A stretch of DNA of 64,000 bases from Paludibacteraceae bacterium (GTDB lineage: Bacteria; Bacteroidota; Bacteroidia; Bacteroidales; Paludibacteraceae), in contig JAFYZR010000013.1 in NCBI GenBank assembly GCA_017557345.1, forward strand, positions 1-64,000, written 5' to 3'. Positions 12,341 to 54,367 of this stretch are shown here, piece by piece. The notes beneath the pieces are model-generated. The model saw nothing but the letters and a program-made list of their open reading frames with translations, was not told the DNA's origin and searched no databases. Within the stretch, counting starts at the first letter, position 1; every line of letters starts with the position of its first letter. Made by a program: the position numbers and the translations under genes.

Positions 12341-13380
12341 GGATCGCATAAGATACATTTCTCGTCAGGTTGGAAACCAAAGAGGAACGTGACACGTAAT
12401 CCGACAGACAGATTGCGCATCCAGAAAGCTTTCGCGTCAGCGGTAGTAAAGACATAATCCATTTGATAGGTCGGGAAATCATAAATGGTCTCCATCGGCA
12501 TTTCATAGAATGGATTGTTGGCTTTCGGACATATATTGAGCAATCCAAAGTCTAGGAATCCCGCAACGCGAATACGTCCGTCTAACCGGTCGCTTGGCCT
12601 TATGCGGTAGTCTTTCGCTTGTTGGCGCGTGTTATACTCATAGCCGATTTCGCCATGAAGCATCAGGTCAAACTTCAGTTTCAAATCGCCCTTCCGCTCT
12701 ATCGGCACATCCTTACGGAAACCGTGATTGTCCATCTCTTCCCAAATACCCACGTATTTCTCATACATACCGGTCGTAGTACCGATTAGCGTTTGGCGAG
12801 TATTTCCCCACACACCGTAGCTAAACCGGAAACCGGCAAGGAAATAACCGATACCATGCTCCGCAAAGATATAATGCCCGAAATAAAGCGGTAATTGCAC
12901 ATAAATCTGTTGTGCTTCATCTTGCCGGTCATAGAAATAATGCTTGAGCGTGAAGGAATCGCCATAGTTATCCACCATGTTATAATGATAGATAGTAGTA
13001 TCGGCAATAGGCGTAAAGACACGCTGATAAGCCGCTCCTAAACCCGTCTGGAAGATAAATCCGCTATACTGATATTCATACAAGAAATGCAAACCGGCCG
13101 GTCCTCCGCCTGGCGTATTGGATGTCTGCGGCATAGGACTGATAAAACTCGACCAGCTGCCTTCGGCAGAAACACCAATCAAATGGTGAGAGCCCGAATA
13201 AAGCGATGCATGTAAACCATGCAAAATATCCGTCTGATTCTCCACGTCTTTGGTAGAGAATCCGCTTTGTCCCTCAAGGCTATATTCGGTCTTATCGCCC
13301 GTCGAATAGCGTTTTTGCCCCCACATGATTGCGGGTAACAGGCAAAGGGTTAGAAGGATGATATGTCGCAGGTTGGACAT
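12328..13380 (-). CDS. outer-membrane beta-barrel protein paired with the giant adhesin
   Basis: A 350-residue secreted protein: signal peptide MSNLRHIILLTLCLLPAIMWG, then alternating amphipathic strands with many Tyr/Phe/Gly residues (LHFLYEYQYSGFIFQTGLG, YVQLPLYFGHYIFAEHG, VGLRVTFLFGF). This indicates an outer-membrane barrel. The start lies inside the last 31 bp of the 2718-residue adhesin gene, so the two are translationally linked. In Flavobacterium, giant type IX substrates are encoded next to PorP/SprF-like barrels. I do not see PorP/SprF signature sequence here, so that parallel is by context only. Confidence 0.75.
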   Translation of the reverse strand: MSNLRHIILLTLCLLPAIMWGQKRYSTGDKTEYSLEGQSGFSTKDVENQTDILHGLHASLYSGSHHLIGVSAEGSWSSFISPMPQTSNTPGGGPAGLHFLYEYQYSGFIFQTGLGAAYQRVFTPIADTTIYHYNMVDNYGDSFTLKHYFYDRQDEAQQIYVQLPLYFGHYIFAEHGIGYFLAGFRFSYGVWGNTRQTLIGTTTGMYEKYVGIWEEMDNHGFRKDVPIERKGDLKLKFDLMLHGEIGYEYNTRQQAKDYRIRPSDRLDGRIRVAGFLDFGLLNICPKANNPFYEMPMETIYDFPTYQMDYVFTTADAKAFWMRNLSVGLRVTFLFGFQPDEKCILCDPWRH

Positions 13381-28699: not shown

Positions 28700-30547
28700 A
28701 TGAGAAGATTTTGGATAATAGTACTTATATTAGGCATCGTTAGCGCTACTTATGCGCAAGCGCTGACTGTGGCTCAGGCTTTGGCAATAGGCAATGAGTT
28801 AGAGCATGAAGGCGTGACATCGGAAAGTTACACCATCGAAGGTTATGTTAATGTGATAACAGATAATCAATATAGTTCTTCTTACAATAATATGACTTTC
28901 TGGATCGCCGATACGCGTGGAACGAAAAGCAGTAGTGCTAATGGCGCGCTACAGGTATATAGAGGTAGGCCAAATCAGGAACTTGTAGAAGGTGATAAAG
29001 TAAGAGTTGTCGCTAAATTGAAAAAGTATTATTCCACAATAGAAACGACTCCATACAACGTTCCGGTCACATGGCTTGAGTCTGCACCGGAAAAACCGGT
29101 GTTGGATACCATTAAAGGTTCTCTCCGCGTGTGCGCTCAAAACTTGGAAAACTACTACTTCAATTTCAATTCTGGACGAGGAAATTATACCCAAGAGGAG
29201 TTTGACGCAAAGACTCAAAAGATTGTCAATGCTATGATAAAGATTGACGCGGATATTTTTGCATTTTGTGAATTAGAGGCTCAACCTATTATTTTGGAGC
29301 AATTGGCAGATTCAATGAACAAGCGCGTGCCGGATAATCGTTATGTGTCTGTGTCTGACGGAATTGCTGTGGAATGGAGTGAAGAGGCAGATTATAATCT
29401 CAAGTCAGGGTTTATTTATCGCAAAGATAAGGTAAAAACGATTGGCTCAAGCTTTCCTGGTACACCAGGTAATGGCTATTATAGCCATACTATGCGTATC
29501 CAGACATTCGAAGAATTGGCATCGGGCGAACGTTTGACGGTATCTATGAACCATTTTAAATCAAAAATTGGTGGTGGAGACGATCAGCGCATAACAAATG
29601 CCAATAATCTTGTAGAGCAGTTGCCGTTGAAAGCTTTAGATGATGATATATTGATCTTGGGAGACTTAAACTGCGAGTATGGTGAAGAACCGATTACAAT
29701 CATTCAAAATGCAGGATACGAAGAGCAAATCTTACGTTATGATAGTTCGGCCTTCTCGCACTGTTATGGCGGAGGAGAATTGATAGATCATGTGTTTGCA
29801 AACGAATCTATGCGCGAACAAATCGTATGTGCCTATGTAAAGCATGTAAGCGCATATGCGTGTAATCCCAAAGTATCAGAGGAAGAGTCTTACGCCGATC
29901 ATGATCCATATGTGGTAGAAATCAATCTTGCAAAGAGCGAAGTGCCTGATGAATGCCAGGATTTAGATAAAACCTATTTGACTGCCAATTTGAGTGGCAT
30001 GACGACGGAAGGTGATGCTGCATGGATATGGGATACATATAATGGTGATAGTTATGCTAAAGTCTGCAAACCGGGAGGCTATACCGGCTATTTGATGACT
30101 CCGGAATTCGATTTGACGCGAATGAAGTCTGCTTCTTTGAGCTTCAAACATGCACACAAATTCGCGGGAACTCCTTCGCAGGAACTGACATTGTGGGTGA
30201 CATCTAATTATCAGGGAAGTTTCGCAGATTCAGAATGGCAACAGTTAACAATCAGTCCTTATACAAGCAACTCCAGTTGGACTTTTGCTGACGTTTCTAT
30301 AAATGTTCCAACTTCCACTTTTGGTCCACGAACAGTGTTTGCTTTCAAATACATGAGCACTGCATCTAATTATGCCACTTGGGAAATCAAGAATCTGAAT
30401 ATCAAGGCTCAATGCGCAGACACTCCAACTGATATCGATTCGGTTCAGCCAGAACAATGTGCAATAAAAACCATCGAGAATGGACAGTTGATTATCACTC
30501 TTCCCGATGGCTCAAGGTATAACGTAATAGGAATACGGATTCGCTAA
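28700..30547 (+). CDS. secreted endonuclease/exonuclease/phosphatase-family protein with C-terminal tag
   Basis: A 615-residue exported protein. Signal peptide MRRFWIIVLILGIVSATYA; an N-terminal DUF6359-like OB domain (about 20-125; SYTIEGYVNVITDNQYS); an EEP catalytic domain (about 140-410) with FAFCELEAQP (metal Glu), SMNHFKSKIGGGDDQR, ILGDLNCEYGE (Asp/Asn), GELIDHVFAN and YADHDPYVVEI (catalytic His); and a jelly-roll choice-of-anchor-J-like domain (about 425-580). It ends with KTIENGQLIITLPDGSRYNV and IGIRIR, a variant of the tag shared with other secreted proteins here. Possibly an extracellular nuclease or phosphodiesterase. It converges directly on the S41 protease gene with 1 bp between stops. 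Confidence 0.85.
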   Translation: MRRFWIIVLILGIVSATYAQALTVAQALAIGNELEHEGVTSESYTIEGYVNVITDNQYSSSYNNMTFWIADTRGTKSSSANGALQVYRGRPNQELVEGDKVRVVAKLKKYYSTIETTPYNVPVTWLESAPEKPVLDTIKGSLRVCAQNLENYYFNFNSGRGNYTQEEFDAKTQKIVNAMIKIDADIFAFCELEAQPIILEQLADSMNKRVPDNRYVSVSDGIAVEWSEEADYNLKSGFIYRKDKVKTIGSSFPGTPGNGYYSHTMRIQTFEELASGERLTVSMNHFKSKIGGGDDQRITNANNLVEQLPLKALDDDILILGDLNCEYGEEPITIIQNAGYEEQILRYDSSAFSHCYGGGELIDHVFANESMREQIVCAYVKHVSAYACNPKVSEEESYADHDPYVVEINLAKSEVPDECQDLDKTYLTANLSGMTTEGDAAWIWDTYNGDSYAKVCKPGGYTGYLMTPEFDLTRMKSASLSFKHAHKFAGTPSQELTLWVTSNYQGSFADSEWQQLTISPYTSNSSWTFADVSINVPTSTFGPRTVFAFKYMSTASNYATWEIKNLNIKAQCADTPTDIDSVQPEQCAIKTIENGQLIITLPDGSRYNVIGIRIR

Positions 30548-35225: not shown

Positions 35226-37025
35226 TTATACGCGACCGGCTCTCTTACGCTCGAGTTCATCCAGAATTATCTTGCGAATGCGCATAGCATGAGGTGTTAC
35301 TTCTACATATTCATCCTCTTTGATATATTCCAGCGCTTCTTCAAGACTCATACGGATTGGCGGTGGCAAAACGGCCTTGTCATCTGCGCTTTTCGAACGC
35401 ATATTGGTCAGTTTTTTGCTCTTCGTCACATTAATGACGATATCGCCTTCTTTCGCATTTTCACCAACCACTTGTCCGGCATAAACTTCTTCCTGTGGAT
35501 CAATAAAGAATCGTCCGCGGTCTTGCAGTTTATCCAGCGCATAGGCATAAGCCGTTCCGGCTTCCATTGCGATAAGCGAGCCGTTGGTACGTTTCACGAT
35601 TTCGCCTTTCCACGGCTGATATTCCAGGAAACGGTGAGCCATGATAGCTTCGCCCGCACTCACGTTCATCACGTATGTACGCATACCCATAATACCGCGG
35701 CTCGGAATCGTGAATTCCAGATGCACACGGTCATTCACCATCTCCATCTTCGTCATTTCGCCTTTGTGCGTGCTCACGAATTCAATAATCTTTCCTGAAC
35801 ATTCTTCAGGCGTGTTAACTGTCAGACTTTCAACGGGTTCGCATTTCTGACCGTTAATCTCTTTGATGATAACTTGCGGCTGGCCGACTTGCAGTTCATA
35901 GCCTTCACGACGCATGGTCTCGATAAGTACCGACAAATGCAGCACACCACGGCCATAAACGCGCCAACTGCTTTCTTCGGTGCCTTTTTCTACGCGCAAT
36001 GCCAGGTTTTTCTCCAATTCTTTGTTCAAACGATCCTGGATATGACGGCTGGTCACATATTTTCCGTCTTGGCCGAAGAAAGGACTGTCATTAATGCAGA
36101 AAGTCATACTCATCGTCGGCTCATCGATGGCAATTGGTTTGAGTGCTTCTGGATTTTCCGCATCGCAGATGGTATCGCCAATCTCAAAACCGTCTATACC
36201 GATCATCGCGCAAATATCGCCGTTCTTGACAACATCCGTTTTTACGTGTCCCATACCCGAGAAAGTATGCAGCTCTTTGATCTTTGTTTTGATCATTGTG
36301 CCGTCTTTCTTTGCCAGCGTGACCATTTGTCCGTCTTTGAATTCTCCGCGATGAACGCGTCCGATGGCGATACGGCCGACATAAGAGTTATAGTCGAGCG
36401 AAGTAATCAGCATTTGCGGAGTACCTGGATTTTCTTCCGGAGCAGGAATATACTCCAGAATGGCATCCATCAAATCGGTCAAATCCGTTGTCGGTTTGCG
36501 CCAATCGGTACTCATCCAGCCTTGTTTGGCCGAACCGTACAAGGTCTGGAAATCCAACTGATCATCCGTGGCATTCAGATTGCACATCAGGTCAAATACT
36601 TCTTCTTGCACCTCATCCGGACGGCAATTCAGTTTATCCACTTTATTGATTACCACAATAGGCTTTAAGCCGATCTCAAGCGCTTTCTGTAGCACAAATC
36701 GTGTCTGTGGCATCGCGCCTTCAAAGGCATCAACCAGCAGCAATACGCCATCTGCCATATTCAGAACGCGCTCTACTTCGCCGCCGAAATCAGCGTGCCC
36801 CGGAGTATCGATGATGTTGATTTTTGTGCCTTTGTAATCAATAGCTACGTTCTTTGCAAGAATCGTAATACCGCGTTCACGCTCCAGATCGTTATTGTCC
36901 AGAATCAACTCGCCCTTATTCTCGTTCTCGCGGAATAAGTGAGCCGTGTAAAGCATCTTGTCCACAAGCGTTGTTTTGCCGTGGTCAACATGCGCAATAA
37001 TTGCTATATTTCGTATATTTTGCAT
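35226..37025 (-). CDS. typA: ribosome-associated GTPase TypA/BipA
   Basis: Translational GTPase related to EF-G that assists ribosome assembly and stress adaptation. 599 residues, the normal length. G motifs: [15 protein letters not shown] (P-loop), [15 protein letters not shown] (switch), [18 protein letters not shown] and [15 protein letters not shown]. Later motifs [39 protein letters not shown] and the C-terminal [17 protein letters not shown] are specific for TypA. Transcribed from its own promoter. Confidence 0.98.
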
Positions 37026-37101: not shown

Positions 37102-37242
37102 TGCGCGCGCATATTTTTTCATTTTGCTATATTTACTTTGCTAACTCAATTTGACAAAATGTCAGAAAAATCACGATAATTGTGATAATTTGTAAACTTG
37201 ACTCGGCATTTATAAGAAAAATATCGCTTTTCTGTCAAAATA

Positions 37243-37274
37243 TTTGGTCGCATCAAAAAAAGGCAGTACTTTTG
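37243..37274 (+). promoter_or_regulatory. sigA promoter for the small sorting-domain-like protein
   Basis: TTTG (37243-37246), 20-bp spacer, TACTTTTG (37267-37274). It places the transcript start at about 37278, at the foot of the hairpin described next. Confidence 0.85.
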
Positions 37275-37275
37275 C

Positions 37276-37353
37276 ACCGTTTTTCGATGGCGTCTGCTCT
37301 CAAGGTAAGCTCTAAAGCCGGATGCCCACGCATTGACGCGAACGAAAAACGGT
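37276..37353 (+). ncRNA. structured 5' leader (long-range hairpin)
   Basis: ACCGTTTTTCG (37276-37286) pairs perfectly with CGAAAAACGGT (37343-37353). Inside, after a 3x3 loop, GCGTC (37290-37294) pairs with GACGC (37335-37339), and TGC (37295-37297) with GCA (37330-37332). The structure begins at the predicted transcript start and ends 18 bases before the Shine-Dalgarno site. I know of no matching riboswitch class; it could be a stability element, a regulatory leader or an independent small RNA. Confidence 0.6.
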
Positions 37354-37370
37354 ATTGGTCTTTAAAAATG

Positions 37371-37377
37371 AAAGGAG
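37371..37377 (+). promoter_or_regulatory. strong Shine-Dalgarno site
   Basis: AAAGGAG lies 6 bases before ATG 37384. Most genes in this window lack a recognisable Shine-Dalgarno sequence, as is usual for Bacteroidota, so this one stands out and fixes the start of the 97-residue gene. Confidence 0.75.
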
Positions 37378-37383
37378 ATAACT

Positions 37384-37677
37384 ATGAGAAAGTATTTGAT
37401 GAAAGTTAGTTATCTAATGACAATCTGCTTTGTTATGGCAGGGTTTACTTTCGCGGACGCAACAAAAAGCAATGATAATTTTACTGTTCGCTTCCGCGAA
37501 AACACGCTGGTGGTTACGGCTGCCAGAATGGAGGAGGCGAGAATTTACTCTCTCCAAGGCAAATTAATCGCTAAAGAAAGAGGAAATTTCGCAGAGTTCG
37601 AACTCGAAAAAGGAACGTATCGCTTGTATGCTAAAGTAAACGGCGAAACGGTTTCAAGAAGAATCGAACTTAGGTAA
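37384..37677 (+). CDS. small secreted protein resembling a free-standing type IX sorting domain (97 aa)
   Basis: A basic signal peptide (MRKYLMKVSYLMTICFVMAG, cleavage near FADA) is followed by only about 70 residues: NTLVVTAARMEEARIYSLQG, KLIAKERGNFAEFELEKGTY, RLYAKVNGETVSRRIELR. This is the strand pattern of a type A type IX C-terminal domain (V-x-IY-x-x-x-G, then LEKGTYxLxVxxG, then a basic end) without a cargo domain. It is a monocistronic gene with its own promoter, structured leader, strong ribosome site and terminator, so it is probably highly expressed. Function unknown. The fold assignment is by pattern, not by search. Confidence 0.75.
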   Translation: MRKYLMKVSYLMTICFVMAGFTFADATKSNDNFTVRFRENTLVVTAARMEEARIYSLQGKLIAKERGNFAEFELEKGTYRLYAKVNGETVSRRIELR

Positions 37678-37701
37678 AATTAGGTACAAAAAGATTGGAG
37701 A

Positions 37702-37726
37702 GGGTACGCTTTGCGTGCCCTTTTTT
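37702..37726 (+). terminator. intrinsic terminator of the 97-aa gene
   Basis: GGGTACGC and GCGTGCCC (one T-G wobble) around TTT, followed by six T residues (37721-37726). Confidence 0.9.
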
Positions 37727-37756
37727 GTGCAAAAAACATGAAAAACAATTGTTTTT

Positions 37757-37807: not shown

Positions 37808-38149
37808 ATGCTTTTGAATATACTGAAATCTAAGATTCATCGAGTGAAAGTGACAGAGGCTAATCTTGAGTATATCGGCTCTATCACAATTGACGAAGCG
37901 CTTATGGAAGCGGCAAATATTTTTGCCGGTGAAAGAGTGCAGGTTGTCGATAATAATAATGGCGCTCGAATTGAAACATATGTCATTCCCGGAAAACGTG
38001 ATTCCGGATGTATTTGCATCAATGGAGCTGCTGCGCATTTGGTGAATGTAGGTGATACGGTCATCATCATGGCGTATGCTCTTATGACGCCGGAAGAAGC
38101 CAAAAACTTCAAACCCGCTATTGTTTTTCCTAACAATAATCGGCTCTAA
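37808..38149 (+). CDS. panD: aspartate 1-decarboxylase
   Basis: Makes beta-alanine from aspartate for pantothenate and CoA. 113 residues. The self-processing site is present in [13 protein letters not shown] (cleavage between Gly and Ser creates the pyruvoyl group). N-terminal [20 protein letters not shown] and C-terminal [20 protein letters not shown] are typical. First gene of an operon with tgt, which begins 15 bp later. Confidence 0.97.
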
Positions 38150-38164
38150 GCGTATTGAAAGTTG

Positions 38165-39298
38165 ATGAATTTCTTTGAACTCCATAGTCCTGCAACGTCC
38201 GTTGGACCAAGAGCTGGTGTGATTCACACCGGTCATGGCGATATCCTCACGCCTATTTTTATGCCGGTCGGCACAGTAGGTACAGTGAAAGGCGTGCAAC
38301 GACGTGAGTTGGAAGAAGATATCAAAGCCCAAATCATTTTAGGCAACACTTACCATCTGTTCCTTCGTCCGGGGACTGAGATTTTGCACCAGGCGGGCGG
38401 TTTGCATAAATTCGAAGGATGGAATAGGCCGATACTTACGGATTCCGGCGGTTTTCAGGTGTTTTCGTTAACCGATATCCGCAAAATGACGGAGGAAGGT
38501 GTACGTTTTTCCAGTCATATTGATGGCCGCAAACTGCTCTTTACGCCCGAATCGGTAATGGATATCGAGCGTGAGATTGGTGCAGATATCATGATGGCGT
38601 TTGATGAATGTTGTCCCGGTACGGCGGATAAGAAATACGCCAAAGATTCGATGGAACGGACGCATCGTTGGCTCGACCGTTGTATCGCGCGATTTGATGG
38701 CACCGAAGATCTATATGGCTATAAGCAGCATCTTTTCCCGATAGTGCAAGGCTGCACTTACCCCGATTTGCGCCAAGAAGCCAGCAAACGTTTGCGCGAT
38801 TTGGATCGTGATGGATATGCAATAGGCGGATTGGCAGTTGGCGAACCAACGGAAGTGATGTATGATATGATTGAGGTTTGCAACGATATCTTGCCGGATA
38901 AAAAACCGCGTTATCTCATGGGAGTTGGAACGCCGTGGAATATATTGGAAGCGATAGAGCGGGGTATAGATATGTTTGATTGCGTCATGCCGACCCGAAA
39001 TGGACGAAACGGAATGATTTTCACATGGAATGGCGTGATGAATATGCGCAATAAGAAATGGGAAGATGATTTCACGGAATTGGATCCTGCCGGTACATCG
39101 TATGTAGATCATGCATATACGCGCGCGTACGTCCGTCATCTCATACACGCGCAAGAAATGTTAGGATTGTCTGTACTTTCGATTCATAACCTTGCTTTCT
39201 ATCTCGAACTGGTAAGTAAAGCGCGTGAGCATATTCTTGCCGGAGACTTCTCTGCTTGGAAAGCAAGCGTCATGCCCAATATCATGCAACGTCTGTGA
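38165..39298 (+). CDS. tgt: queuine tRNA-ribosyltransferase (tRNA-guanine transglycosylase)
   Basis: Exchanges G34 for the queuosine precursor in tRNAs with GUN anticodons. ATG 38165 is preferred to the TTG just before it; 377 residues. Catalytic and base-binding motifs: LTDSGGFQVFSL (Asp), GADIMMAFDECCPGTADKKY, QGCTYPDLRQEAS, GYAIGGLAVGEP and MFDCVMPTRNGRNGMIF (nucleophile Asp). The C-terminal zinc site is degenerate: where most bacterial enzymes have CxCxxC, this one reads GTSYVDHAYTRAYVRHL. I recall the same replacement in other Bacteroidota. The stop overlaps the lptG start (GTGA). Confidence 0.96.
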   Translation: MNFFELHSPATSVGPRAGVIHTGHGDILTPIFMPVGTVGTVKGVQRRELEEDIKAQIILGNTYHLFLRPGTEILHQAGGLHKFEGWNRPILTDSGGFQVFSLTDIRKMTEEGVRFSSHIDGRKLLFTPESVMDIEREIGADIMMAFDECCPGTADKKYAKDSMERTHRWLDRCIARFDGTEDLYGYKQHLFPIVQGCTYPDLRQEASKRLRDLDRDGYAIGGLAVGEPTEVMYDMIEVCNDILPDKKPRYLMGVGTPWNILEAIERGIDMFDCVMPTRNGRNGMIFTWNGVMNMRNKKWEDDFTELDPAGTSYVDHAYTRAYVRHLIHAQEMLGLSVLSIHNLAFYLELVSKAREHILAGDFSAWKASVMPNIMQRL

Positions 39299-40370: not shown

Positions 40371-43300
40371 CTATTCTACACGCGCTCCTCGAGCATCGTA
40401 CATTCTGCCATCTTTAACGATGTAGAGAATACCATCAATCATTACTTTGCGAGCTCCGCTTACTTCTAATCCTTCATCGCTAATGGTTTCAACACCGGTC
40501 GGCGTGTTCTTAATCGGCGAAATCTCAAGGAAGAAGCGTTCTTTGTAATCTCCTGCTTCAAGATTAATAGTATAATTCAGCGCGCTGAGACTCGTACGAA
40601 TACCTGTTTCATTGTCTACCAGCGTTACTCCGATACCATCTGTTCCGTCCGGCATAGCAAAGGTATAATCTCCCGTAGTGGAAATGGTTACACCTACCGG
40701 CACAATCGTCATCTGCTCACTCATTGGCATCGTATTGCCGGCAACGGTCATGATACCATTAATAAGAGTATAGATATTCGCCTTTCTGGAATTGAATTCC
40801 TTCGTGAGATCTTCATTGAAAGCAAAACCTGCACTCACTTCTTCATCGTCACTCATGTTAATGAAGGTTTGGTCAATCATCTTATCGTCTTGCTGTATTT
40901 CCAAACGGAATTCAACCTCCTTTGGTGCTTCGCTGTACGTACGGCGTGCTACAATAGGAGATACAGGCGAACCGCTTGCCGTCCAAGTTACATTACCGTT
41001 GTATTGTACCATATAGGCATGCATCGCATGATAAGTAAAGCCGGAACCGGAAGTGGCGGTTAATGTATTATCATCCATATTCCATGTGTAAAGGAATTTA
41101 GGACCAACTTTACCGGTACCGGAAGATGTCCACTCCGTATTGGCAAATGCTATACTATTCGTGTTAACATAAGTCGGTACACTCATTACATTCCAGTGGC
41201 TATCATAAACTCTACGGTCGTATGATGTTCTTGGATCTCCGGTATCCGAACCGGGTATGCCTTTTTGTTCATACCAGTTTATTGTACATGTATGTGCAGG
41301 AATACTATGCGTGACAGTTGCACTCGTTATATTTGGCATTGTGCCATACGAGGGGAAGAATAGTTCTGCTCGCTCGCTATTATTGGCCCATACAGAAGAA
41401 GATTCGCCTAATTCATCCAAATCCAATGTCAGCAAGTATCCTTGATTAGGTTCAAGGAATACACCTCTGCGATCCCAAATGAATGTCCAGAATCCGGGAT
41501 CTCCTTCCCAGAAACCATTTGCTGCGCGAGCTGCACCATCATAGTATTGAATAATCCAATGTGTGCCGTATTTGCCAAAGCCAAATACTTCTTCCAAGTT
41601 TACTCGGAATGGGAAGGAAATGAAGTATAATCCACGTTCGTGCCTTGATGACGGAGAAGCCAAAGGATTATGCGTTTCTCTGTCTTTGTTATTCAGTGTC
41701 CATTTGTTGAAACGCACAACACCGTACGCTGTTTGTATATTTGTAATTGCACCATCATCTGTGAAAGTTATCTGAGATATATCGCCTTGATGGTCACGAA
41801 TGAACATGACATCAGCGTTAATTGGTGTCGGATCTTCAATGTTTCCACTTGGAACCATTGCTGCAACAAGGCGATTGGTCTTGAAATCGTACAGCAGACG
41901 AATGTCATACCAATCGGAACCACTACCTGTGATTAATGTTTCAGTTTTACTTTCAGTTCCTTTGAAATATTGCAGGATTGTTGTCCCGACTCCCCAAGTA
42001 GAGGTTAACTTGATTAGAGCATTTGGTTTTGCCTTTACATTTGCTTCGTAAATCCAGTTTTGGTTATCAAGGAATTTTACTTCAGTCAGAATGGTGGCAG
42101 AATTGTCTATATCTGCAATCTTGCTGTCGGAACTTCTTAATACCAAGAAATCATTAGCATGGCCTTGCGCTCCATCGATGTATGCACGACTGATAGTATT
42201 GGTATGCTGATCCCACATGAAACGCACATTTGCGTCGCGCAATATGTCTCCATTTGCCTCGATAAAGGTTGCAATATTTGCCCACGTACCGGATGCAGTC
42301 TCGCGCGTCAAAGTATCTGAAATACACGGACTATAATCATTGGCAATAGTGAACTTTACGTTCTTGCGGTGAGCATCAGCAGCTTCCACCCAGTGGCAAT
42401 AGTAATGACTATAACCACCATGGTTGATGGAATACTCCGAATAAGTCATTCGATGGTCAGGATCGCTACGGTAGTTATCCCATTTGCTATTCGCGCAATC
42501 GGTACGAATATAGTAGTTTCCGGTGTATGGATCAACACTTTCCACGGATATATTACCGCTTCCATCCATAGTCAAGTTAATGTTGTAAACACTATCTTGT
42601 GGCAGTGAAGTGATGCTGGAAGTTATCGTACTCTTATCCTCCCAAGAGATGGCTCCTGTTGAACCATTTACAGTCGCTTGTTGAATCTTTAATACACGAT
42701 TCGCGTTTTTCGGACGGATAAAGAAGGAAACAGTGTCTTTTCCATTATTCACTTTCGGAACGATAGCCGAAGGATGCCAAGCGGTGTGAACACCATCCTT
42801 ATAGATCAATCGATAGTCTCCACTTGCAATCGGGTAGTCCACGGACATGCGTAAACGATAGGTGGTCGTTGCATCTTTATGACCTGCATAATTCAAATTG
42901 AAAGTATAGTCTCCGGCAGCATTTGTAGTGATTCTTGCTTTTTTGAACGGAGACATAGAATTGTTCATATCCCAAGCTTCGTGGTTAGAATAGGTCATCT
43001 CACCGGTATTACCATAATAGATACCATCATCTCCAGTGCCACCACGCCTCAATTGGTAACGATAAGTGGTGTTCGCTTCGAGAGATACAATCGCTTTCAT
43101 TGGCATCAATTCATCCTCTGAAGTAAACTCAATGGATTTAACAGTTGGAGATTCGTCGTAATCGTAATAAATCTCTAACGTATATCCCGTTCCTGGTGTG
43201 TATTTGGTCCAGTAGCCGGCATTAAAGTAATTTGCTTTACCACCATTCGAACTATTCAAAGGAATGGCTGCTTGGCTGGCTAACGGCACAAACATCGGGG

Positions 43301-46300
43301 TTGCTGCCTTGAATCCGTTTTCGCTTGACTTGTCGGTGTGAATAGCATCCGGATAGTTAGCGGGATATACGACATTCACATCTGGACTTTTATGCCAGAA
43401 GTTCTCTGAACCATTTTGCGACTCACTTGTGAAGGATACGTACAAACTCGGAGTAATACTTGCAGCACCGTAATCGTAGTACCATATATCGGTTTCGCCG
43501 ATTCGTGTCATGTGTTTGTTGCGGTTGGTTACACCGTAGTTACCTGAACCCTTTGGATTATTCCAATAACTACCAGTATAGAAGTTCACATACACATCGC
43601 TCCAGCCCAAGGTGTTTTTGAAATAAATGATCTGGTTTTGTGTATAGATGGCGGTTAGTGTGCCGTCGTAGATGGCTTTCATTCGTTGAACAGCTACAAT
43701 AGTGGGGTCTTCGGCTTGAAGAGCGGTTAGACGCGCTGCAGTTGTATCTCTAATTGTAACACCGTCTCCTGCTGTCCAACCTGAGAATGTGTAACCAAAG
43801 ATTTCATGAGCCACAACTTCAGTCCATTCTAATGGACGGCCGGTTACCGTTGTTGAGGCCTGAATAGTAACATCGCCACATTTATATTGTACCGTTACGT
43901 TATGGTCTCCTGCTACTTGGAAACCGGACGTAACAGAATCCAGAACAGTTCCATTACCGCAACCGGTACCTGTATGCAGAATAGCAGCCACCAAATACGT
44001 ACCGCTTGTTTCCGGAGCGGTGAAGGTAACAGCATTTCCTCCGGCACTTGTGAAAGTCGGTTGTGAATCCATAATGTTACCATTACTGTGCAGTAATCTC
44101 CAGCAGATCTCTGCTGCGCCTCCCGGTACGGGACTAATGGTCGGTGTTGCTGTTACCGTTCCACTCGGAGCAATGACGGCCGGAGTAATTGTTAGCGCAG
44201 ATATTTCTGCTTGTTTGTAGTAAGCATATAATGTAACGCCACTTGTTCTTATCCATTTGCCATCTGCGTCTGTGTATCCGGATACGTTAGCAATCCAATT
44301 GCCGGATTCGTCAATAACTCGAACTCCTCCTCCGCCTGTAGCGGTATAAAATCCGTAGAAACCATAAGCGCCACTACCTGTAGGCATCGTACCTGAAATG
44401 GCAGGAAGGGCGGTGTTGTATGTAACCGTTTGATTGCCGCATGTTCCGGTATTTCCGTATCCGGTAGCACTTGTCTGCTTGTCTAACGTGACGGTATAGG
44501 ACGCGTATTGATAGCAAGCGAAGAACGAATATTCAGTAATAGTGGTACGGGTATTGGCGGCACTGGTGTAAGTATTTCCTGTTCCTAAAGCGGAACCTGT
44601 TCCCTCTACATTATCATACCAGCCTTTCCAAGTATAACCTGCTGTAGTTGTTGCACTTTTTGTGAAAGTAATAGCTTGGGTCTTAAGAACATAATCTCCG
44701 CTTGTGATGGAAGGAGAAACGGTTACAGCACCACCTCCTCCTAAAGAACCGACACCAAATGTGATTTGAGAGGCTTCAGGGAAGGTAACGGAAAGATCTG
44801 TTTGATGTTTAGCATTAACGACATGATCACTGTTGAAATTAAATGTATAACTGCCGGTGACAGGCGCGTATAGATAACTATCGTCACCGTCATCATACAT
44901 TCTCCAATCCGTGCAATTATTAATCGTCATCGGGTTTGTCGGATTTGAGCCCGTTTTGAAGCCATAGTAGTCGGAATTATAAACGACTTTGAATTTATAT
45001 TGCGTCTTCGCTTGGAGCGTAAGGGTTTTGGATGAAACAGTTCCGGAAGTGCCGGTCCAGTCCCAATTACCGATTGCTGCGTCTCCGGTTGAAGATTCGT
45101 TAGCGGTAAATACACGTAATTGGTTGATAGTTGGGAATGTTACAGTAACAGAAGGATATGTTCCCGATATATCAATCGTAAAGCGGTATGTTCCAGTCAG
45201 ACCGCTAATGTTGATAGGACAGTTATTGCTGTTATCACTCCATAGAGTAGTAGTCTCGCGCGTGCCTTTTTCGATTCCATACTCGCTTCCATACCATGCA
45301 TTGGTTTGTGCATTGTATAGTTTAAACGATGAGTTTTCACTCAAATCAACATCAACATAACCCGACGTGGCGCTTGTAAAAACAAATGGTAAATCCGTTC
45401 CCCAGTCATTAAATCCGCCCTTGAGGTACCATCTCGAAGAGAAGGTACATGTTAGGGTAGAACTAGTAGCGTTTGTTCCACAACCGGTTATAGTTGTTGG
45501 GTTGGCCGTTGTGGAGGATAATGTAATGTTATTATTGTTTTTTGACCAAATTGTCCCAGTTAGATAATATCCGTTTCCAGGAACAGCAGTTATTGAACGA
45601 GTGGTTGTTTTACCGGCAGTTGTGCTGGTAGCAGCAGCGCCGCCGATAGTAAAGGTCCCGGAACCAGTTGGGTTTGCCGCCAAAGTGACTGTTGTCATGT
45701 TTTCTGCCCATTGCGCGTAGAGAATAGTATTTGCATTGATAGTAAAAGTCGCGCCTGCCGCATATGAGGTGCCAGAACCATTTGCTTTTGTGTTCCATCC
45801 GGTAAATCTATAATAAGATCTTGTGAATGTATTACTTTTTGTCGTCACTGTAGAGCCATTGGCATAAGGGCTATTTGAGTCGGTCATTGTTCCTGTTCCT
45901 CCATTGGCATTATACTCTACCGTGTACGACTGACTCCACTGAGCATAAAGAGTCGTAGCACTTGTCTTTTTCCAAGTTCCATTTGAGTTAAGATAGGTAG
46001 AGATGTTAGAACTATACGCCGCTAGCGTACCGTCATCGTTTATTACTTTGTAACCTCCCGATTCCGCCGTCCAATATCCGGTAAGGTTCCAATCAGTACG
46101 TGTCGCATGGGTGATTGTTGAAAGCGTTGATGAACCCACATCCACAGTGGCTGAACCATTTGATGTTCCACTTGTTCCCTTATTTAAAGTAATTGGAATC
46201 TTTGGACAAGTGATGGTGATTGCTCCTGTTGACCAATTATAAGTAATAGTGACACTCCCTGCAATATATGGAGTAAATTTAATATTGTGATCATTGGAAC

Positions 46301-46931
46301 CGTCATCTACGCATGTACAATTGGTATATGAGATGTTTGAACTACTGTTGCTCCAATATCTAGCATCATTCCAATTACTATTCGTATTACATCTTGTGAT
46401 CTTAAGTTTGTGAGCCTCTGCAGAAACAGTAGAAATAGTCTTGGAAAATATGCTTGCTCCATCGTATGTCATTTCACACGCACTTGTGCTCCAACTACCG
46501 ATAGCAGGATCTCCCCAATTATCGCCGGCGATATTCATCGCAAATACACCAAATACTTTTTTTGTGGAGTTGTTGTAACAAATATACCACGTTTCTCCGC
46601 TACTTCCACCGGTAATATTGTCGGAACCACCAAGGGAGGTGAGATAACCAGCACTATTGTTAATAGCCGAAGAACCATAATTCCAAGATGTGGTACTGGT
46701 GGCTACTTTAAACTCTTGATATCCGCTTGTTTTATAATAATAGATATTTGAGTTTGCGGAACTTTGTGTCATCTCAGTAGCTCCCCATGAGTTCATAGTT
46801 CCGCGGACGTACATCGCACCCCACATTTGTCCCACATTGAGGGAGATGAGAGCGAAAATAAGGAAAAAACTACGAAATGACCAGTACTTAATACCGATCA
46901 ACAACCGTTTTTGTGTGTATATAGTTTTCAT
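40371..46931 (-). CDS. giant secreted protein with InlB-like repeats and C-terminal tag (2186 aa)
   Basis: Exported surface protein of unknown function. ATG 46931 gives a long signal peptide (KRLLIGIKYWSFRSFFLIFA, then LISLNVGQMWGA); the TTG frame at 46985 overlaps the preceding gene. Repeated modules: SusE/F- or starch-module-like beta domains (MYVRGTMNSWGATEM, WYLKGGFNDWGTDLPF) and at least three InlB/Flg_new-type repeats (TVEYNANGGTGTM with FTGWNTKANGSG and ILYAQWAEN; TGYWTAESGG; GYTFSGWTAGDGV). A large central beta region follows. The last 30 residues, KVMIDGILYIVKDGRMYDAR plus GARVE, are the tag shared with three other proteins. It follows the 124-aa gene by 7 bp in an operon with one promoter. 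Confidence 0.8.
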   Translation of the reverse strand: MKTIYTQKRLLIGIKYWSFRSFFLIFALISLNVGQMWGAMYVRGTMNSWGATEMTQSSANSNIYYYKTSGYQEFKVATSTTSWNYGSSAINNSAGYLTSLGGSDNITGGSSGETWYICYNNSTKKVFGVFAMNIAGDNWGDPAIGSWSTSACEMTYDGASIFSKTISTVSAEAHKLKITRCNTNSNWNDARYWSNSSSNISYTNCTCVDDGSNDHNIKFTPYIAGSVTITYNWSTGAITITCPKIPITLNKGTSGTSNGSATVDVGSSTLSTITHATRTDWNLTGYWTAESGGYKVINDDGTLAAYSSNISTYLNSNGTWKKTSATTLYAQWSQSYTVEYNANGGTGTMTDSNSPYANGSTVTTKSNTFTRSYYRFTGWNTKANGSGTSYAAGATFTINANTILYAQWAENMTTVTLAANPTGSGTFTIGGAAATSTTAGKTTTRSITAVPGNGYYLTGTIWSKNNNNITLSSTTANPTTITGCGTNATSSTLTCTFSSRWYLKGGFNDWGTDLPFVFTSATSGYVDVDLSENSSFKLYNAQTNAWYGSEYGIEKGTRETTTLWSDNSNNCPINISGLTGTYRFTIDISGTYPSVTVTFPTINQLRVFTANESSTGDAAIGNWDWTGTSGTVSSKTLTLQAKTQYKFKVVYNSDYYGFKTGSNPTNPMTINNCTDWRMYDDGDDSYLYAPVTGSYTFNFNSDHVVNAKHQTDLSVTFPEASQITFGVGSLGGGGAVTVSPSITSGDYVLKTQAITFTKSATTTAGYTWKGWYDNVEGTGSALGTGNTYTSAANTRTTITEYSFFACYQYASYTVTLDKQTSATGYGNTGTCGNQTVTYNTALPAISGTMPTGSGAYGFYGFYTATGGGGVRVIDESGNWIANVSGYTDADGKWIRTSGVTLYAYYKQAEISALTITPAVIAPSGTVTATPTISPVPGGAAEICWRLLHSNGNIMDSQPTFTSAGGNAVTFTAPETSGTYLVAAILHTGTGCGNGTVLDSVTSGFQVAGDHNVTVQYKCGDVTIQASTTVTGRPLEWTEVVAHEIFGYTFSGWTAGDGVTIRDTTAARLTALQAEDPTIVAVQRMKAIYDGTLTAIYTQNQIIYFKNTLGWSDVYVNFYTGSYWNNPKGSGNYGVTNRNKHMTRIGETDIWYYDYGAASITPSLYVSFTSESQNGSENFWHKSPDVNVVYPANYPDAIHTDKSSENGFKAATPMFVPLASQAAIPLNSSNGGKANYFNAGYWTKYTPGTGYTLEIYYDYDESPTVKSIEFTSEDELMPMKAIVSLEANTTYRYQLRRGGTGDDGIYYGNTGEMTYSNHEAWDMNNSMSPFKKARITTNAAGDYTFNLNYAGHKDATTTYRLRMSVDYPIASGDYRLIYKDGVHTAWHPSAIVPKVNNGKDTVSFFIRPKNANRVLKIQQATVNGSTGAISWEDKSTITSSITSLPQDSVYNINLTMDGSGNISVESVDPYTGNYYIRTDCANSKWDNYRSDPDHRMTYSEYSINHGGYSHYYCHWVEAADAHRKNVKFTIANDYSPCISDTLTRETASGTWANIATFIEANGDILRDANVRFMWDQHTNTISRAYIDGAQGHANDFLVLRSSDSKIADIDNSATILTEVKFLDNQNWIYEANVKAKPNALIKLTSTWGVGTTILQYFKGTESKTETLITGSGSDWYDIRLLYDFKTNRLVAAMVPSGNIEDPTPINADVMFIRDHQGDISQITFTDDGAITNIQTAYGVVRFNKWTLNNKDRETHNPLASPSSRHERGLYFISFPFRVNLEEVFGFGKYGTHWIIQYYDGAARAANGFWEGDPGFWTFIWDRRGVFLEPNQGYLLTLDLDELGESSSVWANNSERAELFFPSYGTMPNITSATVTHSIPAHTCTINWYEQKGIPGSDTGDPRTSYDRRVYDSHWNVMSVPTYVNTNSIAFANTEWTSSGTGKVGPKFLYTWNMDDNTLTATSGSGFTYHAMHAYMVQYNGNVTWTASGSPVSPIVARRTYSEAPKEVEFRLEIQQDDKMIDQTFINMSDDEEVSAGFAFNEDLTKEFNSRKANIYTLINGIMTVAGNTMPMSEQMTIVPVGVTISTTGDYTFAMPDGTDGIGVTLVDNETGIRTSLSALNYTINLEAGDYKERFFLEISPIKNTPTGVETISDEGLEVSGARKVMIDGILYIVKDGRMYDARGARVE

Positions 46932-46938
46932 AGCTGAA

Positions 46939-47313
46939 TTATTTTTCTGTTTGTTGTTTAACGGAATTTCTTTTTCTCCATGCAATTACACCGGCAAAAG
47001 CAAGAGCAAAAATGGCCAGGATCCACGGTTCGCCAACAGGCGAAGGGCCTTGACCAGACTCCGGACCACCGCCGAATCCTTTTCTTTGGCCTCCGTTTTG
47101 ATTACCGGGCGTGTACGTATTGCCCACTTCGGAAGGCGGTGTGTTGTCAAATGGCTTATAGACCGTTCCCTCGTAATGAGAGATCGGTTGCACTATTTGC
47201 TGGCTGCGCATCGGGATGGGATGATACGAACTTCCCATCTGGAATGTCTGGGCATAACAGACACCCCATGCAACAGAGCAAAAGATAAGCAAGATTAAAC
47301 CTCGTGTTTTCAT
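46939..47313 (-). CDS. small exported protein with motif-helix-basic C-terminal tail (124 aa)
   Basis: Signal peptide MKTRGLILLIFCSVAWGVCYA, then a Gln/Pro/Gly-rich low-complexity region of about 70 residues (NQNGGQRKGFGGGPESGQGP). The C-terminus has SPVGEPWILAIFALAFAGVI and then AWRKRNSVKQQTEK. The order (short motif VGEPW, one hydrophobic helix, basic cluster) matches tripartite sorting signals read by exosortase- or sortase-like enzymes. No such enzyme is in the window. First gene of the operon with the 2186-residue protein, so it may be an anchoring partner. Confidence 0.75.
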   Translation of the reverse strand: MKTRGLILLIFCSVAWGVCYAQTFQMGSSYHPIPMRSQQIVQPISHYEGTVYKPFDNTPPSEVGNTYTPGNQNGGQRKGFGGGPESGQGPSPVGEPWILAIFALAFAGVIAWRKRNSVKQQTEK

Positions 47314-50464: not shown

Positions 50465-53400
50465 TTATTTTACTTCGCATCCGAAGATGTTATACATCTT
50501 CTCGTCGCGGATGATAAAGAGTTGACCTTCACGCAGAACTTTCTGAATGCCGGATTCTGCATCCTGAACTCCCTCAATTCCCTCATTGCCTCTTGGCTCG
50601 CGGTTGACGAATACGGCGTTGTTCACTATCGGATTGCCGTATTCATCTTGATCATAAACAGCCAAGATAGATATTTGGTCACCGTTAATCACATCCAGTG
50701 TCGAGAACCGTCCGGCCTTGCCTTCCGGAGTCAATAGGCCATGGATGACAATGGCATCGGTTTCATCCGAGAGCACGAAATATCCGTATTTCCATGCTGC
50801 TGCACTTTCATTTTCAGGCAGATCGTTAACCATACCCTTCAACATAACGGTATCGTTGAAATTCCGGATTGCTAGGAAATCAACAATACGCATCCATCCG
50901 AGGTATTGCGGTTCCGGCGAAGCATTTAGTATGTTGTACGAGCCGTTCACTATTTCCGGCTTGTCTTCATTACGTTTCAGATAGCCGCATATGGAAAGAC
51001 TTTCTCCGATACGCAAGCGGCGTTGCTCCCATTCATAGCCTCCCTTGAGTTCCACACAGCGCACTTTCAATCGGTCCTCGTATGACTGCATATTACCCGG
51101 GTTATCCGTAATGAAGAACGTTGCGTAATCCTCATCCGGATAGCCTTCCTCCCATTTGCTTACAAAGGCACTTGTAATCTTTACGATATAGCTGGTTTTT
51201 TGGCCTTCAGCCAAATCGCTTACGGCTACTATCGCTTCATATGGCGTCATATTTCGGAATAGAGTGTACCACAATTCCTTTGTCTTGAGATCAAAGTAGA
51301 AGATAATATCATAGTTGCCTTCGTCGGTTATCTCCAGCGTCTGATTGGTGTAAGCAGGATACTCAAACTGCGCATAATCGCGGTTGCCGACTACTTTATA
51401 TTCATACGTACCTGCCACTGCATAAACACCCTCTTTGGTCAGGCTGCATACACTGTCTTCGTTCATCAGCATGTCGTTGGATGAATCGTATGGATCCCAA
51501 TCCGATGAAAACCATGGAAAAGCTCCTACAATCGTGTAAACCCAGATATCCGGCTTGACGTCTTCACCAAATCCATATGGCGCGGTGACGCAAATACTGG
51601 TACCATCGAAGGTAATCGTGATGTTCTGCATCGTCATGGAATTGAACTTGATGTTTCCTTTCTCGTCAAAGCCGCCATTGACTACGTTTTCGCTTGAGCA
51701 TGATTGGTTCACGCTACCGAAAGCCCATTCATGTCCTTCGCCCCATTCGCCGTCCGTAATCTTGAAGAAATAGGTTCCCGCAGGAACGTCATAGAACGTA
51801 ATCGAGCCGTTAATCATAGGTGAACCTGCCGGATCCCAGTATTTGCCGTGGCACCATGGATTGCCTTCCTCGCCGTTACCGGCTACGTAGTATGTCTTCG
51901 TTGGAGTCGGAGCAACGCCTCCTATGGTCAGGTGAAGCGTAACAATCGAGTCACATGTGTTGTTCTTCTGTTTTAGAACCCGCTCGTAGTCGCCGCTTAC
52001 AGTATAGGTCTGGCCTTCCCAAACATATTCGCTCTCTGCTTCAGCGCTAAACTCGAAGAACTTCGTTTCACAAGTCGGTTCAGGAATCTCGCCGATCGTC
52101 AAAGATAGCGTTACGGTACTGTCACAGTCCCAATTCACTGTATGGAGTACCTTTGTATAGGTTCCGCTTTCTGTATAGCTGGAGCCTTCCCAAACGTATG
52201 GATTATCGGTTGTCTCAACGCTGATAACATGGTTATATGTCGGATGAATCGTCAGATGCATTATTGCTACACTATCGCAACCTCCTTCTATCTGGAAGGT
52301 TTGCGAGTACTCGCCGCTTTCTGTGTATTTCTGTCCGTTCCAGGTGAATTCACCGCAAGCCGTTTGGGTAAATGCATAGGTTTTGTCCTGGCAAGGCGGA
52401 GTAGGCATACCAATTTCCATTTCGCCTCTTGTTAATTCGCCATTTACGGCATAACCTTTAGGGTCGCATGTGCTGCAGTAAGCCAGTCCTTCCGGACTCA
52501 TCGGTTCGCAACCAATCAGTACAGGTTCTGTTTCTGACAAGAATGAGTACATTACTAAGCGTTGTTTGTCGCTCGTCGGAGTTCCGATAACTTTGGATGT
52601 CAGATGAACACGTTTCAACGTAATGACGGAAGATCCTTGTGCTTTCACACCACCGGCACCTTCTACCTGAACTGTACAATCTTCTATATTCAAGTTGCAA
52701 TTCGGCCAAGTAGTCAAAGCTGTATAGCACATTCCTGCGCCGGCCTCTCCTACTTGATGATCTAACGGACCGTCGTTGCGTACTTTCAGCAACGGCTCTG
52801 TGCCTGCTGCACCCACAATCGTTGTGTTCACGTCGGTACGAAGTGCGATACAATAAGGCGTATGCAAATCTACTGTGCCGCGTATCTCAATGCGCAATCC
52901 CTTTAAGGTGGCATTGAAAACGCCCCAGGTTACATTCGGCGTTGTAATGGTCACGTTGTTCAAAATCAGCGTTTTCGAGGCTGGTGTGAAACTGATGGAT
53001 CCACCGGTTCCCACGGTCACACCTTCAATTCCGCTCAAATCCGTACGGTTCAAATCGGTAATGAACTCGCCCGCGATACGAACGCCATAGCGATAATTCG
53101 GATAAACGACCATGTTTCCCGTAACATGTGAGAAGTCCTTGTCCCAACTTAGGAACGTATATCCATCGGCATTGTGTGACGGTTCGTCCGGTGCCGTAGC
53201 CGCTGCATTCGGTTCTACCGTCTCCGTCTTAAGAACCGTGGCATCATACGTATCAATGAACACAACGGTATAAGTCGTTCTTTCCTCATACTGCGCTGTG
53301 AAAGTTGTCGGACCCGTGATATAATCCAAGGTCATCGGATCCGGAGTTGTCCACCCTGTGAAAGTATGGCCAGCCCATGCCGGAGCTGCAGGAGGAGTAA

Positions 53401-54367
53401 CGGCACAACCGTATTCTACCGGAACCTCTAATAACGTTTCGCCTTGAGGACCTTTGAACAGAACCGTATATTCATGAACCGTCATTGCCAAACGAACAGG
53501 ATTCTCAACGCGGAAATTATTTGTGTTGGCATTCTTCACTTTGTTGGTGTTGTCATCATAAGAACTTAGACTGCGGGCTAATTGGAAACAGTAATAACTG
53601 CTCGTATTGGAAGCAGTCGAACTCATATAACGAGATGACATCGAACCTATAGTAGGATTTGAGGATCTCTTAGGACCGCTCCACGAAACGATATTGGAAC
53701 TATTCGGAGATGCATATCCTGCATCGGGAAGGAAGATGGCACCTGCATTCTCCATAATCTCCCAATCGACTAAGGTGTAGTTGTTCTGAGCTCTATCTTC
53801 TGCAACTGGAGTAAAGTGTCCGCCGGCAGGAGTGGTCCAACCGTCCGGCAAAAGAATAAATCCTATAAGACCATTCACGGCTCCAAAGCCCATCAGCTGA
53901 CTGGCATTCGTACGGTTGTTAAAGAGGTACATCCATTCGTCTTTTGTCAGCGTACGCCATAAACCGGCCTGGTTGCCGCCGTTCGAAATGGCGCAATATT
54001 GTCCCCAGTCATAGTTCGTGCCCGCGATATCGGTCTTGTTACCATAAGCATAATCCGAATTGGTGTAACTGTACATCTCCGGATTCTTGTTGTTATAACC
54101 GCTTGTGCCCCAAGCGAATAAGTCAATCCAGTTGTTGTAATTCGCTTCAATACGGCCTTCATTCGGCTCGCCGATAACGCTGTCTTGGCGAACGGCAAAC
54201 TGCCATACTTTGTTACGCACATGATACTGGAGGTTACCTTGCGCAAAACGCACCTGTGTGCCATTGGCATCTACGGTGAAACGACCGCCTTTACTGCCGA
54301 CAGGGGCACTAAAGACCATGACTGCCGCAAATAAGCCGGCTGCCAGGAGGAGAAATCTGTTTTTCAT
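50465..54367 (-). CDS. mosaic secreted surface protein with C-terminal tag (1300 aa)
   Basis: Signal peptide MKNRFLLLAAGLFAAVMVFS. Residues about 25-290 form a domain with FAQGNLQYHVRNKVWQFA and GWTTPAGGHFTP-like sequence and the Trp/Asn-rich SNGGNQAGLWRTLTKDEWMY, which I know from many Bacteroidales surface proteins but cannot name. Then two InlB-like repeats (about 300-440; AGHTFTGWTTPDPMTLDY, DGYTFLSWDKDF), a beta-solenoid-like part (LILNNVTITTPNVTWGV), three GCDS-type repeats like those of the 2718-residue adhesin (GGCDSVAIMHLTIHPTY), starch-module-like domains and an OB-like part. The end, IQKVLREGQLFIIRDEKMYN plus IFGCEVK, is the shared tag. Monocistronic. Role unknown; adhesion or glycan binding is possible. 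Confidence 0.8.
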   Translation of the reverse strand: MKNRFLLLAAGLFAAVMVFSAPVGSKGGRFTVDANGTQVRFAQGNLQYHVRNKVWQFAVRQDSVIGEPNEGRIEANYNNWIDLFAWGTSGYNNKNPEMYSYTNSDYAYGNKTDIAGTNYDWGQYCAISNGGNQAGLWRTLTKDEWMYLFNNRTNASQLMGFGAVNGLIGFILLPDGWTTPAGGHFTPVAEDRAQNNYTLVDWEIMENAGAIFLPDAGYASPNSSNIVSWSGPKRSSNPTIGSMSSRYMSSTASNTSSYYCFQLARSLSSYDDNTNKVKNANTNNFRVENPVRLAMTVHEYTVLFKGPQGETLLEVPVEYGCAVTPPAAPAWAGHTFTGWTTPDPMTLDYITGPTTFTAQYEERTTYTVVFIDTYDATVLKTETVEPNAAATAPDEPSHNADGYTFLSWDKDFSHVTGNMVVYPNYRYGVRIAGEFITDLNRTDLSGIEGVTVGTGGSISFTPASKTLILNNVTITTPNVTWGVFNATLKGLRIEIRGTVDLHTPYCIALRTDVNTTIVGAAGTEPLLKVRNDGPLDHQVGEAGAGMCYTALTTWPNCNLNIEDCTVQVEGAGGVKAQGSSVITLKRVHLTSKVIGTPTSDKQRLVMYSFLSETEPVLIGCEPMSPEGLAYCSTCDPKGYAVNGELTRGEMEIGMPTPPCQDKTYAFTQTACGEFTWNGQKYTESGEYSQTFQIEGGCDSVAIMHLTIHPTYNHVISVETTDNPYVWEGSSYTESGTYTKVLHTVNWDCDSTVTLSLTIGEIPEPTCETKFFEFSAEAESEYVWEGQTYTVSGDYERVLKQKNNTCDSIVTLHLTIGGVAPTPTKTYYVAGNGEEGNPWCHGKYWDPAGSPMINGSITFYDVPAGTYFFKITDGEWGEGHEWAFGSVNQSCSSENVVNGGFDEKGNIKFNSMTMQNITITFDGTSICVTAPYGFGEDVKPDIWVYTIVGAFPWFSSDWDPYDSSNDMLMNEDSVCSLTKEGVYAVAGTYEYKVVGNRDYAQFEYPAYTNQTLEITDEGNYDIIFYFDLKTKELWYTLFRNMTPYEAIVAVSDLAEGQKTSYIVKITSAFVSKWEEGYPDEDYATFFITDNPGNMQSYEDRLKVRCVELKGGYEWEQRRLRIGESLSICGYLKRNEDKPEIVNGSYNILNASPEPQYLGWMRIVDFLAIRNFNDTVMLKGMVNDLPENESAAAWKYGYFVLSDETDAIVIHGLLTPEGKAGRFSTLDVINGDQISILAVYDQDEYGNPIVNNAVFVNREPRGNEGIEGVQDAESGIQKVLREGQLFIIRDEKMYNIFGCEVK

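Follow-up and report, generated by a model that had tools for sequence, protein, structure and literature searches.

The window, by which we mean the whole 64,000-nucleotide stretch of DNA that was analysed, carries on its forward strand a small gene, here called X. Its 97-residue product consists of a signal peptide ending in FADA (as judged by eye), about six residues (TKSNDN) and one domain of about 65 amino acids that runs to the C-terminus and resembles the C-terminal domain (CTD) of proteins sorted by the type IX secretion system (T9SS). The neighbours of X in the window are presumably typA (35226-37025, - strand), panD (37808-38149, + strand) and tgt (38162-39298, + strand). The features of the X locus are:

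37243..37274, + strand, promoter, TTTG (-33 type) and TAcTTTTG (-7 type), read from the sequence
37277..37351, + strand, class A leader RNA, with P1 at its 5' terminus, P2, an inner hairpin and invariant internal loops
37371..37378, + strand, Shine-Dalgarno site AAAGGAGA, an 8-nt match
37384-37677, + strand, X open reading frame, ATG start, 97 aa
37384..37461, + strand, signal peptide (residues 1-26), its predicted cut, judged by eye, following ADA
37462..37674, + strand, mature CTD-like domain of X, with motifs B (RIYSLQGK), D (GTY) and E (RRIELR)
about 37698..37726, + strand, intrinsic terminator, a hairpin followed by a T-run

A sequence-only reading of this locus had described a signal peptide and sorting-like domain without cargo, expressed from its own promoter through a structured leader, a rare strong Shine-Dalgarno site and a perfect terminator. 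The product is as described, and the gene is intact and stands alone. The promoter boxes, a TTTG at 37243-37246 and, after a spacing of 20 nt, a TAcTTTTG at 37267-37274, form what we take to be a Bacteroidetes-type promoter, distinct from the sigma-70 type. Both boxes lie 5' of X in 73 of 78 orthologs and the -7-type box is found in all 78; the -33 TTTG box is lacking at loci L083-L086 and L070. The Shine-Dalgarno site is indeed rare, as a match of equal length precedes only 1 of the 41 other predicted window genes of at least 100 aa, and its AAAGGA core is present in 63/78 orthologs. The terminator is a strong hairpin with a T-run (fold z = -4.4 for 37678-37732), though not a perfect one, as it contains one G-U pair; a pattern scan did not list it. 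Between the stop codon of X and this terminator lies a AGGTACAAA-like string (37682, + strand); AGGTACAAA occurs once in the window, and a loose pattern finds such a string 3' of the X stop codon in 19/78 orthologs. The string GGTATT[A/G] occurs 5' of the start codon in 43/78.

Conservation of X within one genus

X is present in a single copy in its own genome, and orthologs, one each, were found in 78 of the 178 genomes of the genus (E <= 3.7e-21). The rest of the genus comprises 46 genomes with weak matches only and 54 with none at E <= 1. All 78 orthologs are 93-106 aa long, the length of three of them (105-106 aa) depending on the start codon that we chose. A scan of 358 family genomes returned the same 78 orthologs and, beyond these, weak hits (E 2.0e-6 to 9.6e-4) in 13 genomes, eight within the genus and five among the 180 other family genomes; no clear X ortholog was found among these 180. 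Ten of these 13 genomes were inspected, and in each the frame hit was a longer one, of 122-419 residues, with the match close to its end. Among named genomes, a scan yielded 74 X loci in taxa named Paludibacteraceae, Bacteroidales or Bacteroidia, with a ruminant as the source of most genomes that give one and a pig for one. The genus with X, a member of the Paludibacteraceae, consists of uncultured gut bacteria; when the source is given, it is mostly the ruminant gut.

Three groups of frames were considered as X-like and set aside. Frames L203-L213, from ten genus genomes without X, are about 150 aa long, combine a signal peptide and an N-terminal part with a standard CTD of the YPNP type, and represent a small cargo family rather than a stand-in for X. 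The weak hits L218-L221, in frames of about 280 aa, look by eye like another, unrelated family. The third is a 112-aa CTD frame at G025:C33, a piece beside a peptidase-like ORF in another frame.

At the 78 X loci, mostly fetched with about 1.5 kb on either side and some clipped by contig ends, typA was found in 38 and tgt in 55, with at least one of them in 61, neither in 17, and their order varying. The most divergent orthologs, L081-L086, have neither gene in the fetched stretch. In a PorU tree of 80 genomes that we chose, mostly more complete ones (40 of the 78 with X and 40 of the 100 without), one clade (support 0.98) has X in 34 of its 40 members, compared with 6 among the 40 genomes outside it, a distribution in which loss is not separated from MAG incompleteness.

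The median dN/dS of mature X was 0.13 (137 of 595 core pairs), and that of its faster-evolving signal region was 0.43 (329 of 595), pairs with dS outside 0.1-1.5 being excluded. X is under purifying selection. Across 35 core genomes, the mean identity of mature X (78%) was above that of PorU (67%) and of the PorU CTD (62%), and this suggests that the domain is constrained throughout by a partner. The sequence-only reading would have been undermined if X were a fragment of a broken longer gene. Such pieces do occur, as the G025:C33 frame downstream of its peptidase-like ORF illustrates, but the 78 orthologs with their own promoter boxes, Shine-Dalgarno sites and signal peptides, together with the low dN/dS of the mature protein, rule out a decayed cargo gene, a pseudogene or a chance ORF to the point where we give such an origin almost no credence.

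Relation of X to type A sorting domains

X scores below the curated cut-offs of both family models for sorting domains (TIGR04183, 16.6 bits against 23; PF18962, 12.9 bits against 27). Among 30 orthologs, TIGR04183 was matched by 21 at E <= 0.1 (best 2.2e-4) and NF052644, a model of a T9SS nuclease, by 17; in Pfam at E <= 1, PF18962 matched 2/30 and DUF3836 matched 7/30 (best 0.04). Since the curated cut-offs are missed, we do not file X as a member of TIGR04183, though it is CTD-like by its parts.

Comparison with domains of known structure, as proposed by the sequence-only reading, was made here by sequence. A profile of the 30 orthologs matched eight PDB chains at E <= 10, and the five best (E 0.047-0.46) were all sorting domains aligned along the domain: the CTD of RgpB (7pq4, 5hfs, 5ag8, 5ag9) and RemZ (8gl8). 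The next match, at E 0.53, was a non-CTD chain, and a PDB search with the single X protein recovered none of the RgpB or RemZ matches. When the X profile was compared by hhalign with eight CTD tails of its own genome, which had been picked by TIGR04183 independently of X, the probability was 92% in local mode (P = 5.7e-7) and 68% in global mode (P = 6.4e-6), against P = 0.34 and 0.7, respectively, for a reversed-profile control. A larger CTD set gave 94.8%, a value biased by the ten of its tails that were found through X.

The three recognition motifs of sorting domains are retained in X. In motif B (the loop between beta3 and beta4, Tyr/Phe ... Gly), Y55 is present in 76/78 orthologs (F in two) and G59 in 76/78 (A in two, L085 and L086); in motif D (GxY), G77 and Y79 are found in 78/78; and in the C-terminal strand that holds the basic residues of motif E, R92 and an R or K at position 93 are found in 78/78. 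The first strands are strongly conserved too (R36, T41 and V44 in 78/78), at positions outside the motifs named in the published descriptions that we consulted in part. According to the sections consulted of PMC11285876 and PMC11969387, the beta3-beta4 loop and the C-terminus are required for secretion in other species, motifs B, D and E are predicted to be contacted by PorV, and no single CTD side chain was indispensable in the earlier tests; an excerpt of PMC10994853 gives RemZ Lys1110 as the one conserved contact.

By these alignments and motifs, X has a domain related to, though diverged from, the type A sorting domains of the T9SS. The full type A strand pattern attributed to it earlier, which would amount to a seven-strand Ig-like sandwich, is putative: its one support is the alignment to the RgpB CTD along the whole domain, and the family models score below their cut-offs. 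An alternative is that a CTD fold has been recruited to a task in the periplasm that has no link to the T9SS. The sub-threshold scores and the X-specific invariant first strands fit this idea, as does the lack of X in 100/178 genus genomes despite PorU in 170/178, but all three T9SS recognition motifs are retained, and we consider this origin unlikely.

Three large ORFs of the window, at 28700-30547 (+ strand), 40371-46985 (- strand) and 50465-54367 (- strand), end in similar short tails, two of which have the pattern xKVxxxGxLxIxxDxxMYxxxGxxV, and these tails resemble the "short CTDs" of Prevotella intermedia, which are cut at PT/GI according to the consulted part of PMC11969387. That part of the source reports both CTD kinds only in P. 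intermedia; the genome of X, which has long CTDs as well, may be another with both. The 2709-aa ORF at 13350-21479 (- strand) contains an IgGFc_binding domain (PF17517, 2e-47).

Leader RNAs upstream of X

A leader element of 71-99 nt, class A, is common to 35 of the 78 orthologs. The window leader matches the covariance model R1 of this element with an E-value of 5.2e-21, its own sequence being among those that built the model. Over the 35 class A loci, mean identity was 85.5% in the core, compared with 66.1% over the 70 nt preceding the promoter, 51.6% at fourfold-degenerate sites and 49.7% after the stop codon. The earlier claim of a structured leader is supported.

Pairing was counted on 30 class A leaders (29 distinct), excluding the duplicates L051 and L068 and the badly aligned L002, L009 and L010. 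In the hand-drawn structure, 96.9% of cells pair. Changes on both sides of a pair numbered 37 compared with 14.8 in shuffles, the covariation score was 0.190 compared with 0.105, and slid versions of the structure come nowhere near; the two measures least swayed by relatedness were not above shuffling (pairs with both-side changes, 5 vs 4.1; further pair types, 14 vs 14.3). One P2 pair is GC in 18 sequences and AU in 11, the inner-hairpin pair at columns 32/45 is non-standard in five sequences, and the outermost P1 pair fails in ten. Six class A leaders folded singly gave z-scores of -0.6 to -1.8.

The class A model found 39 matches in 39 of the 178 genomes, all just upstream of X, 30 of these being model-building sequences; weak copies elsewhere could be missed owing to strict filters and to the 27 candidates scored per genome. 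Searches of Rfam returned only a tRNA at gathering score for the whole window, with no leader or riboswitch family, and no gathering-score match for the class A leader region (37180-37420). The two sub-threshold hits in this region were RybB on the other strand (E 0.63, 37214-37267) and ATPC (E 6.2, 37213-37292), the latter overlapping just the first 16 bases of the element. We therefore rejected a riboswitch or other known RNA as an account of the X leaders for want of Rfam support in class A or in the five loci of the second class searched (below).

A second element, class B, is a likely pseudoknot of 22 nt found in 11 other X leaders. Over its five distinct sequences, all cells pair and both partners have changed in two of the four pairs of the second stem, a result reached by 5 of 500 shuffles; the first stem is invariant, and the number of covarying pairs (2 vs 1.4 in shuffles) is not above shuffling. 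A search pattern that fixes most bases and leaves the pairing free occurred 11 times in the 178 genomes, in all 11 cases just upstream of X, and the reversed pattern, used as a control, had no occurrence in the genomes listed. Rfam searches of five of the 11 class B loci gave three sub-threshold hits, none of them on the leader. Two of these sub-threshold hits lie beyond the 3' end of X: FopS, a Bacteroidetes sRNA, just past the X stop codon at L059:1781-1832 (+ strand; 30.8 bits, gathering 56, E 0.33), and PrrB_RsmZ on the strand opposite X at L074:1370-1499 (+ strand; 29.7 bits, gathering 44, E 0.0013). The remaining 32 X leaders comprise four that keep the class A outer stems, one with the outermost stem, five with a short hairpin and 22 that are unclassified. 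On the PorU tree, genomes with different leader classes are intermingled.

The 5' end is mostly paired in 68/78 X leaders compared with 36/84 other promoter matches, counted on leaders clipped at 110 nt and with no correction for relatedness. This excess fits stabilisation of the mRNA and, like the strong expression signals at X, would suit a gene whose product is simply made in quantity: X itself could be a secreted cargo, a small Ig-like protein that retains its CTD outside the cell or on its surface, its leader yielding a stable, well translated mRNA. The conserved inner sequences of the leaders, found only at X, exceed what simple stabilisation needs. Plain protection of the mRNA accounts for the common 5' stem and not for the invariant loops of class A. 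X has two gene-exclusive leader RNAs that are absent from Rfam as searched, and they raise a question of their own, namely why two unrelated RNA structures stand at the same gene in one genus and, in our searches, nowhere else.

A possible role of X in type IX secretion

The genus is equipped for type IX secretion. PorU was found in 170 of the 178 genomes (168 above cut-off), and the eight without a hit are 59-83% complete and include three that carry X (G011, G031 and G099). CTD matches occur in 178/178, and the genome of X itself encodes PorV and, on two contigs, SprA. As a clear X is absent from 100/178 genomes, X is dispensable for the T9SS; we thus ruled out a requirement for it.

Only about six residues, and no passenger, separate the signal peptidase site (placed by eye) from the first strand of X. 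PorU is said to cleave RgpB at the start of its 663-671 linker. By the alignments to the PDB matches and the signal-peptide cut chosen by eye, mature X would start near RgpB residues 668-669. Excerpts of PMC4804311 place the RgpB linker at residues 663-671 and the ordered CTD from 672 onward, and report that the RgpB CTD alone dimerises through strand swapping; PorU cleavage is placed in linkers in general (PMC4804311 and PMC5562754, each consulted in part), and release of the cut CTD allows PorV to be re-used (PMC5562754, in the part seen). Mainly because mature X aligns from about RgpB 668-669 and the PorU linker is almost absent, X can be read as a pre-cut CTD, and the mature protein would resemble a CTD that PorU has already removed.

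We tentatively favour, at less than even confidence, a role for X as a cargo-less occupant of the CTD-binding sites on PorV and SprA that tunes the export of type A cargo. Sec would take X to the periplasm, where signal peptidase would leave a domain that starts approximately where a PorU-cut CTD begins. This domain retains the surface motifs through which CTDs contact PorV and the translocon SprA; it carries no cargo, and the linker that PorU would cut is almost absent. X might then bind PorV reversibly, perhaps swapping strands with other CTDs, and its occupancy may tune the loading or release of type A cargo, at a dose presumably set by the strong promoter, the strong ribosome site and the dedicated leader RNA. 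Export of X, its binding to PorV and any regulation that follows are what we infer from these features. Motifs B, D and E and the R/K93 counterpart of RemZ Lys1110 are consistent with occupancy; the missed cut-offs, the marginal PDB E-values, the lack of a clear X in 100/178 genus genomes, the conserved first strands and the alanine in motif B of L085 and L086 argue against it.

Nearly as likely is the minimal secreted protein introduced above, for which we would hold a distinctly cautious expectation. It has parallels in Fjoh_0547, a 112-aa CTD protein of Flavobacterium johnsoniae whose secretion persists in sprA and porV mutants, and in PorA, which keeps its CTD in one surface form (both from the part of PMC7712824 consulted). 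The conservation of X above that of PorU, however, exceeds what we would expect of a surface-exposed protein. PorA also suggests a signalling role, in which X would report the state of the envelope or of the T9SS to PorXY/SigP. The consulted part of PMC7712824 places this small CTD protein upstream of PorXY-SigP in Porphyromonas gingivalis, but the separate N-terminal domain of PorA, a possible ligand binder, has no counterpart in X, and we regard such signalling as very unlikely.

Taken further, the occupant reading would make X an encoded mimic of the PorU-released CTD, one that would sit on PorV as a placeholder or brake, set the type IX load in this way and be dosed by gene-exclusive leader RNAs that switch class within the genus yet stay with this one gene; as a whole, we judge this extended scheme rather improbable. 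The type A CTD itself is a known domain, and Fjoh_0547 is a precedent for a CTD protein with next to no cargo. As far as we have searched, what is new is a conserved, single-copy family of cargo-less CTD proteins and its missing PorU linker. No printed precedent for a "CTD-only" protein of type IX secretion was found in one library of open papers, where related topics gave PorA and Fjoh_0547. How one shuttle, PorV, is shared among the many cargos of type IX secretion and whether cut CTDs feed back on it are questions for which a naturally cargo-less, strongly selected CTD would be a clean tool, and such a domain would also be a candidate for internal competition.

Comparison with known systems

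PorU and PorZ of P. gingivalis carry N-terminal domains ahead of their CTDs. In these two proteins and in PorA (PGN_0123), as in X as we picture it, the CTD escapes removal at least some of the time (PMC11285876 and PMC7712824, in the parts consulted); unlike X, PorA has an N-terminal domain before its CTD, as the same part of PMC7712824 describes. Fjoh_0547, by its description in that excerpt, is like X a very small CTD protein with little room for cargo.

In sequence, the best PDB match is the CTD of RgpB (gingipain R2) of P. gingivalis, which can be aligned along the whole domain (profile positions 26-94 on 5hfs residues 6-72), has motifs B, D and E and, in the stretch shown, lacks a YPNP motif. 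It differs in being the tail of a protease, cut by PorU, whereas X stands as a protein by itself, its linker almost absent. The RemZ CTD bound to SprA-PorV of F. johnsoniae (8gl8), the second-best PDB match, shares with X the basic residue of the last strand, and is in contrast attached to a cargo chain of 1114 residues. In principle, X as a site occupant may be likened, by description, to the Plug of the F. johnsoniae translocon, a protein that seals the quiescent translocon (PMC10994853, in the part consulted).
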